A stretch of 38,475 bases of DNA from an uncultured Lachnospiraceae bacterium (GTDB lineage Bacteria > Bacillota > Clostridia > Lachnospirales > Lachnospiraceae), in the NCBI GenBank assembly GCA_947384285.1, contig CANDGI010000027.1, positions 1-38,475 on the forward strand, written 5' to 3'. The translations under genes and the position numbers were made by a program. Position 1 is the first letter of the stretch, and each line of letters opens with the position of its first letter. The notes beneath the pieces were generated by a model that was not told the origin of the DNA, searched no databases, and saw only the letters and a list, made by a program, of their open reading frames with translations. This document shows, in pieces, positions 35,426-38,475 of the stretch.

Positions 35426-36308
35426 ATTCCAAAAATACGGCGTGATGAAATTCATCGGGCATCTGGATATGATGCGGTATTTCCAAAAGGCAATCCGCCG
35501 GGCAGGGATTGACATTGCTTATTCTGGCGGCTACAGCCCGCACCAGATTATGTCCTTTGCCGCGCCTTTAGGGGTTGGCGTTACCAGTGGCGGGGAATAT
35601 TTCGATATTGAAGTGAATACCTCCAAATCCAGCCAGGAATCCATAGAAGCCTTAAACCAGGCTATGGTGGAAGGAATCTCTATCCTGGAGTATAAAAGGC
35701 TTCCCGATACAGCCAAAACTTCTATGTCGCTGGTGGCGGCTGCAGATTACCTTGTGTATGAAAAACCAGGGTATGAGCCGTTCTTTTCTTCCCTGGAGGA
35801 GCTTCAGGAAAAGGTTCAGGCTTTTTATGAAAAGCAGTCGGAAATCATTATTACAAAACAGACGAAAAAGAGCCAGATTACCATGGACTTGAAGCCGTTC
35901 ATCTATGAGATGAAGGCGGTAAAGTTAAAGGACATGGGCTTAAAGGACATGGGCTTAAAGGATAAGGTAAAGGATGAGGGCTTAAAGGACATGGGCCAAT
36001 CTGCGGAATACGGCTTATTCCTGAAGGTCTGTACTGGAAGCAGCAATAATATAAAGCCGGAACTGTTGCTGGAAGCATTCTGCCGGTTCTGCCAATTAGA
36101 TGATAACCTCTTAAGATTCCAGGTACACCGCCTGGAGGTTTATGCAAAATCAGAAGAGATTCCGGTTAAAGGAGAGAAAGAGCGGGCGGATTACCAGAAG
36201 CATCTGGAACAATTAAAGAAAACCTTTGCCGCAGAAGGAAAAAAATTCCCGGAATTTCTGCCGCTGGGAGCATTGGGGGAGGATATTTTGTGGGAAACAC
36301 ACTGCTGA
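35409..36308 (+). CDS. DUF2344 / TIGR03936 family protein
   Basis: 299 residues. The N-terminus (IRIKFQKYGVMKFIGHLDMM, then RYFQKAIRRAGIDIAYSGGY) is the DUF2344 signature. It is encoded next to the radical SAM gene in most Clostridia, sometimes fused to it, and probably assists the same reaction. The start is taken as TTG 35409 behind AAGGGGGTG, where the family's conserved sequence begins. An upstream in-frame ATG at 35370 would overlap further and has no signal. A low-complexity LKDMG repeat (about residues 173-196) interrupts the protein. It overlaps rng by 19 bases. Confidence 0.85.
   Translation: MNIRIKFQKYGVMKFIGHLDMMRYFQKAIRRAGIDIAYSGGYSPHQIMSFAAPLGVGVTSGGEYFDIEVNTSKSSQESIEALNQAMVEGISILEYKRLPDTAKTSMSLVAAADYLVYEKPGYEPFFSSLEELQEKVQAFYEKQSEIIITKQTKKSQITMDLKPFIYEMKAVKLKDMGLKDMGLKDKVKDEGLKDMGQSAEYGLFLKVCTGSSNNIKPELLLEAFCRFCQLDDNLLRFQVHRLEVYAKSEEIPVKGEKERADYQKHLEQLKKTFAAEGKKFPEFLPLGALGEDILWETHC
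35925..35996 (+). repeat. 15-bp tandem repeat (LKDMG) inside the DUF2344 gene
   Basis: TTAAAGGACATGGGC occurs at 35925, 35940 and 35982, with degenerate copies between (LKDKVKDEG). All are in frame. It looks like slippage-driven expansion in a loop between two conserved halves. Confidence 0.85.
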
Positions 36309-37492
36309 TTACCAAATTAAACCGAAATGATATATGCTGCATTGCAACGGCGCTTTATTCTGGACAAAGGTTGGTGGAAATCACCTTAGAGCCCCTAAAC
36401 CAGCAGAGCATTCTAGGAAATATTTACGTGGGAAGGGTAAAAAATATCGTGAAGAACTTAAACGCGGCCTTTATCGAAATTGCCCCGGGCATGCCTTGCT
36501 ATTATCCTCTGGATGAGATGAAGCGTCCGCTGTTTGTAAAAAAAATAAACAGCCCAAGGCTGGTGCAGGGGGATGAGGTGGTTGTCCAGGTATCAAAGGA
36601 AAACAGCAAATCCAAACCGCCGAAGGTTACCACCAATTTGAATTTTACCGGAAAATATCTGGTACTGTCCAGTGAAAACACCCAAATTGGATTTTCCAAA
36701 AAATTGGAGGAGCAGAAGAGGGAAGAATTAAAACAGGAGCTTTGCTTCGGGAATCCCGGGGAATGGGGAGTGATTGTCCGTACCAATGCAGCGGACGCTT
36801 CAAAGGAAGAGATTCTGGAAGAATATGAATTGTTGAAACAGGAATATTTTCACTTGAAGGAAACGGCGCCTTACCGCACGGTATTTTCCTGCCTAAAGGA
36901 AAGCATGCCGGAATATCTTCATATTCTTCAAAATGTGAACCAGTCCCAGCTTAGCTCCATCCTTACGGATGATTTGGAACTGCTAGGGAAAATCCGTGGA
37001 TACTTAGAACATTTCCAGCCGGAGGATTTAGGGAAGCTCACCTTTTATGAAGACCCGATGTTAAGCTTAAGTAAGCTTTACAGGCTGGAACACAGGCTCA
37101 AGGAAGCATTGCAGGAAAAGGTGTGGCTCAAATCAGGAGGATTTCTGGTGATCCAGCCTACAGAGGCTTTGACGGTGATTGATGTGAATTCAGGCAGAAG
37201 CATATCCAAAAAGCAGGTGCAGGAGCATTACCTTGCGATTAATCTGGAAGCGGCCGAGGAGATTGCACATCAGCTCCGCCTTCGGAACCTGTCTGGAATT
37301 ATTATTGTAGATTTTATTGATATGAAGTCCTCCCAGTCCCAGGAGCTGCTGATGCAGAGATTGCGAAACGCTGTCTGCCTGGATACGGTTCCAGTCCAGG
37401 TGGTAGATATGACAAAGCTGAATCTTGTGGAGCTTACTCGGAAAAAAGTGAAGAAAACTTTGGCAGAGCAGGCAGAACAAGCTTCATTGTAA
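36290..37492 (+). CDS. rng: Ribonuclease E/G family protein
   Basis: 400 residues, an RNase G-like endoribonuclease for rRNA maturation and mRNA decay. An S1-like domain is near the N-terminus (GNIYVGRVKNIVKNLNAAFI). The two catalytic Asp are present: Asp298 in VIDVNSGR and Asp341 in IIVDFIDMKS, followed by the RLRNA motif. No RNase E-type scaffold extension is present. It is somewhat shorter than E. coli RNase G (489), missing the C-terminal zinc-link region. The start is GTG 36290, with GGGGGAGGA just before. This is the last gene of the conserved operon. In relatives rplU-rpmA-obgE usually follow. Confidence 0.9.
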   Translation: MGNTLLITKLNRNDICCIATALYSGQRLVEITLEPLNQQSILGNIYVGRVKNIVKNLNAAFIEIAPGMPCYYPLDEMKRPLFVKKINSPRLVQGDEVVVQVSKENSKSKPPKVTTNLNFTGKYLVLSSENTQIGFSKKLEEQKREELKQELCFGNPGEWGVIVRTNAADASKEEILEEYELLKQEYFHLKETAPYRTVFSCLKESMPEYLHILQNVNQSQLSSILTDDLELLGKIRGYLEHFQPEDLGKLTFYEDPMLSLSKLYRLEHRLKEALQEKVWLKSGGFLVIQPTEALTVIDVNSGRSISKKQVQEHYLAINLEAAEEIAHQLRLRNLSGIIIVDFIDMKSSQSQELLMQRLRNAVCLDTVPVQVVDMTKLNLVELTRKKVKKTLAEQAEQASL

Positions 37493-37495
37493 AAT

Positions 37496-37539
37496 GAAAT
37501 GCGACAAGAGTTAATAAACTCTATCGCATTTCTTTTTTT
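37496..37539 (+). terminator. rng terminator
   Basis: GAAATGCGA/TCGCATTTC plus AGAGTT/AACTCT form a long stem with a small bulge, followed by seven T. Confidence 0.85.
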
Positions 37540-37553
37540 ATACGCTTTTATAG

Positions 37554-37596
37554 GGAATGTGTCAAGGGTTTAGGACTTTTGGCACATTCCTTTTTT
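37554..37596 (+). terminator. Second terminator directly before the accessory cluster
   Basis: GGAATGTG (37554-37561) with CACATTCC (37583-37590), extended by TCAA/TTTTGG pairing, then TTTTTT. It ends about 13 bases before the ribosome binding site of the next gene, leaving no room for a promoter between. It could be an attenuator. Confidence 0.75.
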
Positions 37597-37625
37597 ATTT
37601 TGGAGCGATAGGAGGTGTAGAAAGC

Positions 37626-37808
37626 GTGAGAAAAGGTAATAGGCGATTGAACTATGAGGACAGAAAACGGATTGAAAAAATGAAAGAGCAGGGGGCGAGA
37701 GTGATTGTAATTGCTGACACTATCGGGGTCCACCGTGCGACTATCTACAACGAGTTAAAGCGTGGAGGTACACCCTATCGGGCGGAAGTCGCACAAAGGA
37801 CGGTATAA
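37626..37808 (+). CDS. Small helix-turn-helix protein, IS30-like HTH
   Basis: 60 residues from GTG 37626, 8 bases after AGGAGGTG. The sequence RRLNYEDRKRIEKMKEQGAR then IADTIGVHRATIYNELKRGG matches the N-terminal HTH of IS30-type transposases (Y/T-x-x-ER...IA-x-x-lG-v-x-xxT-IyrELkRg). Nothing of the catalytic DDE part follows, and the protein ends at YRAEVAQ. It is therefore a stand-alone DNA-binding protein. Such proteins are common in prophages of this group. It starts a run of four genes packed within a few bases of each other. Confidence 0.7.
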   Translation: MRKGNRRLNYEDRKRIEKMKEQGARVIVIADTIGVHRATIYNELKRGGTPYRAEVAQRTV

Positions 37809-37810
37809 GT

Positions 37811-38023
37811 GTGGAAATGGTATGGGAAACGTTGCAGGAAAAGGCTAGGGAATTGGCGGATATGGTCGGTAGCGTGGTAGTAGATGAAGCGTTGCCGTTG
37901 GAGGTATTGGAAGCCGTGGCGGATTGTCTGAAAGAGGATTGCAGGCAGATTAGGCAGGCGGTACAGGATATGCAGGAAGAGCAGCAGGCAATAGAGAGAA
38001 TGACCGCAGGAAAGGAGGGATAG
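37811..38023 (+). CDS. Small acidic helical protein, unknown
   Basis: 70 residues starting at GTG 37811 (an ATG two codons later is also possible), two bases after the HTH gene's stop. It is acidic and rich in Glu/Gln/Val, with a probable coiled coil in the second half (EDCRQIRQAVQDMQEEQQAI). No family is recognised. The position suggests translational coupling with its neighbours. Confidence 0.55.
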   Translation: MEMVWETLQEKARELADMVGSVVVDEALPLEVLEAVADCLKEDCRQIRQAVQDMQEEQQAIERMTAGKEG

Positions 38024-38024
38024 C

Positions 38025-38228
38025 GTGGCAAGCAAAACGGAAAAGCACACGGTAGCGTACAGGAACGTGAAAAAGTGTGAGTTTCATAATATCGGGTCGC
38101 ATATCGTGGCGACAAGCATAATCGGCGGTACTACGTTTTGTGCGTTCTTTGATTCGGGATTGCATACCGAGGAAAGCATAAGACGGAGAGGAAGCATAAA
38201 GTTACATTCAATTTATTCTAAAAAGTAG
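38025..38228 (+). CDS. Small basic protein, unknown
   Basis: 67 residues from GTG 38025, one base after the preceding stop, with AAAGGAGGG as a strong ribosome binding site. It reads KTEKHTVAYRNVKKCEFHNI and then a hydrophobic stretch SHIVATSIIGGTTFCAFF. No family is recognised. Because it directly precedes the DGR-target-like gene, it may be a co-transcribed accessory protein. That is inference from position only. Confidence 0.55.
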   Translation: MASKTEKHTVAYRNVKKCEFHNIGSHIVATSIIGGTTFCAFFDSGLHTEESIRRRGSIKLHSIYSKK

Positions 38229-38242
38229 GAGGAAAAGAGGAA

Positions 38243-38475
38243 ATGAGTGAAGCAATCAAGCACAACAATGTAGCGGTTTTTGATGATAGGGGGATTCCCT
38301 CTATTATGGTCCGGTTTGAGAATCCGAGGGCAGCAGTTACCCCGGAAATGTTCATTATCGGAGGGAAAGAGGTAGACGCTATCTATATTTCCAAGTATCC
38401 CAACAAGGTAATCAAGGGCAGGGCGTACAGTCTGCCAATGGTAGACCCGACAACGGAAATTACCTTTGATGAAGC
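38243..38475 (+). CDS. N-terminus of a DGR-target-like (C-type lectin fold) protein, 3' end outside window
   Basis: The frame starts at ATG 38243, 10 bases after AGGAGG (38227-38232), and is open to the window edge (77 codons). It reads IPSIMVRFENP, then EMFIIGGKEVDAIYISKYPN, then GRAYSLPMVDPTTEITFDEA. The pattern G-K-E-V-D-x-I-Y-I-S-K-Y followed by G-R-A-Y-S-L-P and then [IV]-x-F-D-x-A is typical of the N-terminal part of formylglycine-generating-enzyme/C-type-lectin-fold proteins diversified by DGRs in gut Firmicutes and their phages. In full-length homologues the VR is at the C-terminus, outside this window. Alternatives are a phage tail or receptor-binding protein of the same fold without DGR. 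Confidence covers the fold, not the presence of a working DGR. Confidence 0.6.
   Translation, partial: MSEAIKHNNVAVFDDRGIPSIMVRFENPRAAVTPEMFIIGGKEVDAIYISKYPNKVIKGRAYSLPMVDPTTEITFDE

Follow-up and report, generated by a model that had tools for sequence, protein, structure and literature searches.

The analysed stretch of 38,475 nucleotides, hereafter the window, is the whole of contig C27 in the assembly of an uncultured Lachnospiraceae bacterium (GCA_947384285.1, here G000), which is 83% complete and comprises 74 contigs. The features at its right edge, all on the forward strand, are:

36290..37492, + strand: host rng (ribonuclease G-like), whose last codons and stop are supplied by the prophage end
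37466..37480, + strand: left copy, GAGCAGGCAGAACAA, of a 15-bp target-site duplication; the right copy is at position 444 of contig C42 of the same assembly
37481..37508, + strand: prophage left end, recognised from 13 flanks, with the terminal inverted-repeat motif TGCGACAAG at 37500-37508
37490-37495, + strand: TAAAAT, a -10-like box by its sequence, in the prophage left end
37496..37532, + strand: leader hairpin 1, followed by a T run and terminator-like by eye
37552..37592, + strand: leader hairpin 2, terminator-like by its predicted fold
37626..37808, + strand: 60-residue HTH_38 protein by domain match, a putative regulator
37811..38023, + strand: 70-residue ORF, also found at the equivalent position in the relative L010
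38025..38228, + strand: 67-residue ORF, also found at the equivalent position in L010 and L023
38243..38475, + strand: very probably the initial 77 codons of target 1 of a diversity-generating retroelement (DGR), complete in L023 with its VR (VR1) near the 3' end

The last of these begins as an ATG-started frame (38243-38473) of 77 residues that is open at the window end and contains GKEVDAIYISKY...GRAYSLP...FDE; its first 233 bp lie inside the window, whose end is the contig end in the source assembly, and the truncation is an assembly break. The first-pass annotation had reported this pattern, its cut by the window edge and three small, tightly packed genes ahead of it, and the frame, the quoted pattern, the contig end and the three ORFs were all found as described. 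The frame is real rather than a chance one, because the fragment matches phrog_2889 (E 6e-21) and has relatives at 28 loci, 16 on genome contigs and 12 on viral contigs; over the full 77 residues six relatives are 94-97% identical to it and two are 99-100% identical. The 60-residue protein shares its HTH family with the phage IS30 transposase described below, in which this domain is N-terminal.

The viral contig L023 is identical to positions 38025-38475 of the window (451 bp) and encodes a whole target 1 of 331 amino acids. In the relatives VR1 starts 0.84-0.86 kb into this gene, and from these, together with the 451-bp identity to L023, the window's own copy would be expected to carry a VR as well. 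We considered and rejected VR/TR repeats as the cause of the window's contig break, since the contig ends about 0.6 kb before the VR. Four other assemblies (L008, L017, L022 and L024) likewise end within target 1, and those of L008 and L017 stop just short of the VR, which is where VR/TR repeats or VR variation would be expected to interrupt assembly; in a further viral contig (L030, G021:C1:19398-20374) the target-1 gene is interrupted by stops. A profile built from 18 target-1 relatives matches the structure 5vf4 with E 6e-61 from positions 10 to 320, the VR included, and a single target-1 sequence aligns to it only at residues 18-208. This structure is TaqVP, a DGR variable protein of the CLec fold (PMC6328139; papers are cited here by PMC identifier), and both targets match it. 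The match supports a C-type-lectin-type C-terminus for target 1, with the VR at the 3' end of the gene.

In the relatives, target 1 is part of a tailed prophage of about 48 kb, the left part of which consists, in order, of the left end, the HTH gene, two small ORFs, target 1 with VR1 and a long block of phage genes. The right part continues with target 2 (VR2), Avd, TR, the reverse transcriptase (RT), lysis-like genes, an IS30-family transposase and the right end. In G004 the ORFs of the long block resemble phage genes in their order and sizes; the block appears to hold replication, head and tail genes, most of them named by analogy with the annotation of Faecalibacterium phage FP_Lagaffe. The element of Roseburia sp. 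1XD42-69 (G004) measures about 48.25 kb from left to right end and has target 1 at C259:44443-45435 and, on the same contig, target 2 at 82970-83968, the TR match at 84377-84610 and the RT at 85038-85697. VR1 and TR are separated by about 39.1 kb in the prophage and, by arithmetic, by about 8.9 kb across joined ends. The 346-residue transposase of this element belongs to the IS30 family (NF033563, E 1.6e-69), and the Mutator family was absent among the hits of a profile search at E 0.01. The left end starts with GCTTCATTGTAAAATGAAATGCGACAAG and adjoins 13 different flanking sequences, the window counted; among the left-end rows compared, L009 deviates in its initial bases, and a fourteenth row, L024, is an end-to-end junction. 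Right ends of a clade of 12 members are of the TTGACAAAA type, and by eye both ends of the prophage carry TGCGACAAG at bases 20-28.

A search of 21 genomes or records for the target and an RT recovered a target match in all 21 and some RT in 15. In 8 of the 21 a target-1 orthologue (69-100% amino-acid identity to L010) and a DGR-type RT share one contig. No contig was common to a target-1 orthologue (at least 69% amino-acid identity) and a DGR RT in the other 13, in 11 of which under 29 kb of contig remains on the downstream side of the target; the remaining two, G014 and G015, have only distant homologues (39-47%), that of G015 with an RT nearby. The RTs of the eight paired elements read IGNLTSQ in translation (by eye), which agrees with the DGR motif (I/V/L)GxxxSQ as opposed to the QGxxxSP of group II introns, retrotransposons and most other RTs (PMC3521204). 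Further RTs with IGNLTSQ or IGNLLSQ motifs at L043 (G007:C20), L050 (G001:C3) and L042 (G015:C40) lie near target-like genes of 39-47% identity and represent additional DGR elements.

We compared 110-bp stretches of VR1, VR2 and TR in each paired element, both VRs matching the single TR, which has 22-23 adenines in 110 positions. Mismatches between VR1 and TR fall at TR adenines in 95/96 cases over the eight elements and in 82/83 over seven independent ones, with one elsewhere; for VR2 the corresponding counts are 91/94 and 82/85. G020 was dropped for independence, as its mismatch counts duplicate those of G009. In all, one VR1 and three VR2 mismatches occupy non-A positions. Behind both VR1 and VR2, a hairpin with a GGTA/GATA loop and a 7-11 bp stem is present in 7/7 elements (G020 excluded), and the VR of L023 is likewise followed by a GRNA-loop hairpin; a target-recognition hairpin after the VR is described for phage BPP-1 (PMC3240598). 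The stems read (A)GGGGTGC for VR1 and AGGGTGTGC or AAAGGGTGCGC for VR2, the letters differing and the base pairing being retained. After the TR of the seven elements there is no GGTA/GATA loop, and two of them have a 9-bp hairpin with a different loop there. The Avd of the G004 element, the one searched, matches PF22296 (E 1.3e-24) and NF033474 (E 6.5e-27), above cutoff. Finally, among five close copies, namely L010 and four others at 92-97% amino-acid identity to it (L025, with a different frame length, was omitted), variable columns amount to 26/111 in the VR against 57/885 outside it (p 1.3e-7). These results bear out the first-pass annotation, which had proposed, from a short N-terminal pattern, a DGR target with a C-type lectin fold and had pointed to an avd gene and to VR variation among isolates as things to look for. 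It had erred in expecting RT and TR within about 5 kb, as they lie about 39 kb downstream in the integrated prophage, and in giving the RT motif as QGxxxSP; its rule that their absence within 5 kb would refute the proposal would reject a true case, because of that same distance.

Two readings dispense with a working DGR at target 1. In one, only target 2 is live, target 1 having arisen as a copy of it that was once a target and whose VR differences are old relics; this would fit the remoteness of target 1 from TR and RT in the prophage and the paralogy of the two targets, which share 43-46% amino-acid identity in the eight paired elements. However, at non-A positions VR1 departs from its cognate TR only once across the seven elements, although the two targets share only about 60-62% identity over a stretch of approximately 400 bp upstream of the VR, so that VR1 seems to have been kept in step with TR. 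Close phages also differ in VR1, which retains its own hairpin, and for 18 cognate Lagaffe genomes the published alignments have signal at both VRs (PMC11792537). We regard this reading as very unlikely. The other, that the gene encodes an ordinary FGE-sulfatase-like enzyme or a non-varying phage tail protein with no DGR, draws on matches to PF03781, the L010 copy lying just above the cutoff (24.8 against 23.3 bits) and the L023 copy just below it (21.6); target 2 has no Pfam match. It can be given next to no credence in view of the VR/TR pairs, SQ-motif RT and Avd found on the same element in the relatives. Very probably, a temperate tailed phage resembling Lagaffe carries a DGR with two targets, and the cut-off gene is the N-terminal portion of the first of these, target 1. 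In such an element, the TR RNA would be copied by the RT with Avd, adenines being misread, and the mutagenised cDNA would replace VR1 or VR2. The phage would in this way diversify two C-type-lectin proteins of the FGE type that most likely bind receptors, the gene for one lying beside the tail genes and that for the other in the left-end operon.

The window's own copy is inserted between rng and rplU. Contig C42 of the same assembly begins inside a transposase 98% identical to that of G004 (residues 215-346), and its right end is followed by GAGCAGGCAGAACAA, GTAAAAAAACA, TTGACT, 17 bases, TATTCT and rplU (the last by eye); the right copy of the duplication thereby lies 11 bp before the rplU -35 box. 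In three phage-free relatives (L072-L074) rng directly precedes the same promoter and rplU. Because of the repeat on C42 and these phage-free relatives, we conclude that the phage inserted within the final codons of rng, which thereby acquired a new end: its C-terminus now reads ...ASL, and ...VKKH across the right flank (by eye; empty site L072, right flank L113). An 18-base pattern around the duplication had matched only the window, because it was longer than the duplication, and the right end was found later by the transposase search. The start of contig C18 (G000:C18:1-800, L114) carries a second, related IS30-type prophage right end, with a transposase 85% identical over residues 118-346, which also lies 26 bp before a promoter-like TTGACT-17-TAGTCT.

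Queries with the RT family, target 1 and one 20-kb DNA stretch recovered no phage body from the G000 assembly, the null result of the last showing little on its own. Only two PF00078 hits were obtained, and both were rejected as the DGR RT. One (G000:C10:78553-79787; L004:8554-9788) is not of DGR type, having QGPAYAR where IGxxxSQ is expected (by eye); it is a 296-residue protein with RYVDD, followed by a 114-residue ORF, and might at a guess be a defence RT. The other (G000:C41:947-1228, L005) is a fragment too short for the motif and is group-II-intron-like by eye. This absence, and the fact that G000 retains no more than 1 kb at the left and the final approximately 0.4 kb of the transposase with the right end, would suit a decayed prophage remnant of which little was kept beyond the ends. 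Yet C27 and C42 stop abruptly within open frames, as fragmented assemblies would do at multi-copy phages, the assembly is incomplete to the extent given above, and in L023 the stretch of identity leads on into a gene that is intact; a remnant is accordingly rather improbable.

An exact 15-bp duplication is present in 6/6 copies tested with both flanks. We scanned 40 right-end loci, of which 24 have a recognisable end and flank and 16 do not. For the 12 TTGACAAAA-type ends, the promoter score averages 9.0/12 at an offset of 26 bp from the end, compared with 4.39 +/- 0.41 in shuffles (0/2000 as high). Seven of these 12 were not used in forming the rule and give 9.14 against 4.37 +/- 0.54 (0/2000 shuffles as high), a result to be read knowing that the flanks had already been seen when end sequence was used to delimit the group of 12 and that several of the seven had been eyed before the test. 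Within this clade the best score is at offset 26 in eight; L114 ties, L117 is best at 27 and L108 at 25. TTGACA is matched in at least 4/6 positions exactly at 26 in 9/12 and at 27 in L117, with L108 and L119 failing; for L119 (G010) no convincing promoter was found.

The 12 more distant ends follow the promoter rule weakly or not at all. Their score at offset 26 is 5.33 against 4.25 +/- 0.40 (9/2000 shuffles as high), the best score is at 23-25 in seven and at 28 in one, and L094, L096, L101 and L107 score no higher than 7/12 at any offset. Promoter-upstream insertion as a rule for every IS30-type end is contradicted by these distant ends and was discarded. Among a further 24 loci the end motif was present in seven: by eye, the flanks of L126 and L129 (the same site as L090) resemble promoters, and L128 and L138 have neither a promoter-like sequence nor a terminator-like repeat. 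The distant ends L124, L125 and L127 adjoin, again by eye, terminator-like inverted repeats rather than promoters, because of which target choice may differ among transposase clades. Genes identified by eye downstream of right ends include, besides rplU, hrcA-grpE-dnaK-dnaJ-like genes in G004 and an ssrA-like sequence at the distant end L092.

Junctions of right to left end were found in two viral contigs, L024 (= L148) and L149. In both the spacer between the ends is exactly 2 bp (TA and AT), generating TTGACA-18-TAAAAT facing the target operon. This is a putative promoter, the -35 of which would come from the right end and the -10 from the left end, with the 2-bp spacer between them. At the 13 integrated left ends the best hexamer, allowing spacings of 16-19, matches TTGACA in 1-4 of 6 positions, with 4/6 in six of them, as against 6/6 at the junctions; some integrated copies may be weakly expressed, because their hexamers match at up to 4/6. 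The leader at 37481-37625 is very stable, with two hairpins and a fold z of -8.4, and both terminator-like hairpins separate the HTH gene from the junction; in L149 a hairpin of other sequence occupies the position of hairpin 2 (by eye). The two hairpins weigh against simple read-through from the junction, so that attenuation or antitermination would be needed; alternatively, they may shut out transcription from rng. Taken together, these observations lead us to a tentative proposal, which we hold to be possible rather than probable. In this proposal the integrase, an IS30-family transposase of the copy-out/paste-in kind, recognises host promoter regions, and the 15-bp duplication that it makes ends 11 bp short of the -35 box, which leaves the host gene with its promoter. 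Excision would join the ends into a promoter that switches on the target-1 operon.

The closest layout in a described phage is that of Faecalibacterium phage FP_Lagaffe (Lagaffevirus lagaffe, MG711461; 48,211 bp), which shares the order target, Avd, RT, lysis genes, IS30 integrase, att, HTH and, further on, second target. Comparison of the G004 element with the Lagaffe record places the IS30-type integrase at one end and the HTH gene and target 1 at the other, and the target 2-Avd-RT module before the lysis genes in both. Lagaffe has two VRs, with VR-TR mismatches at A in 11/11 and 13/13 cases, and they are reported in MTD-like proteins (PMC11792537). It is flanked by direct repeats, which its authors found surprising for an IS30 transposase, makes virions and has a cos region, and the available text of the same study contains no mention of promoter targeting (PMC5883640). 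The two phages nevertheless differ. By target 1 alone, the Lagaffe protein is only 42% identical, that of Dulem virus 37 (PP511443) being slightly closer at 43%; the named relatives of the present phage are in Lachnospiraceae by record titles, unlike the Faecalibacterium phage Lagaffe; and the end sequences differ. By eye, the Lagaffe att region has no room for the two-hairpin leader of the present left operon and has TTGACT-16-TAATAT just before the HTH gene. Junction patterns taken from the Lagaffe record had no match among the viral contigs. The DGR described here has an already known layout, because Lagaffe shares the order, the two VRs, the IS30 integrase and the direct repeats; the candidate insertion rule and junction switch are put forward as new. 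In F. prausnitzii phage FP01, which was called lytic, an IS30 transposase (orf43) was read as an acquired IS, and a COG2826 HTH gene (orf46) lies near it in an arrangement reminiscent of Lagaffe (PMC13432834); by this analogy orf43 may be the integrase of FP01.

The DGR of Bordetella phage BPP-1 (Mtd) shares with the present element the TR/VR pair, the SQ-motif RT, Avd and the GRNA-loop hairpin, but the present element has two targets, one of them remote. The hairpin features of BPP-1 are those given in PMC3240598. The only solved structure matched by sequence is that of TaqVP, not Mtd of BPP-1. TaqVP, from a Thermus aquaticus prophage (5vf4), matches the target family over nearly the whole length, VR included, though its host is remote from the present one and a second target is unmentioned in the available text of PMC6328139.

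Among mobile elements, TnGBS, ISLre2 and ISKra4 insert at a fixed distance upstream of the sigma-A -35 with the right end by the promoter, as here; they have Mutator-superfamily transposases, and TnGBS lies 15-17 bp away (PMC3942029). The present phage differs from TnGBS in its IS30-family transposase, 15-bp duplication and 11 bp from duplication to -35. Copy-out/paste-in ISs such as ISCth4 and IS256 have a -35 at the right end and a -10 at the left, joined only upon excision (PMC7780238), as in the present phage, but here what the putative junction promoter would transcribe is a phage operon containing a DGR target, not the transposase gene. IS30 is listed among the circle-forming families (PMC3299598). 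We found no report of IS30-family phage insertion upstream of promoters in the open-access literature searched.

Searches confined to a few kilobases around the RT miss real DGR targets, one of which is located here at the far end of the prophage; by their own account, the metagenome survey of Roux et al. 2021 would overlook targets as remote as this (PMC8144416). The insertion rule offers a possible account of how phages with IS30-type integrases settle beside host genes and yet leave these joined to their promoters, as at rplU and, with genes identified by eye, at the hrcA-dnaK operon. The junction likewise offers a possible account of how excision turns on a hypervariable protein. If this is true, the lysogen would not express that protein, production of which would be confined to the excised phage, and the same excision would bring TR and VR1 from 39 kb to about 9 kb apart.
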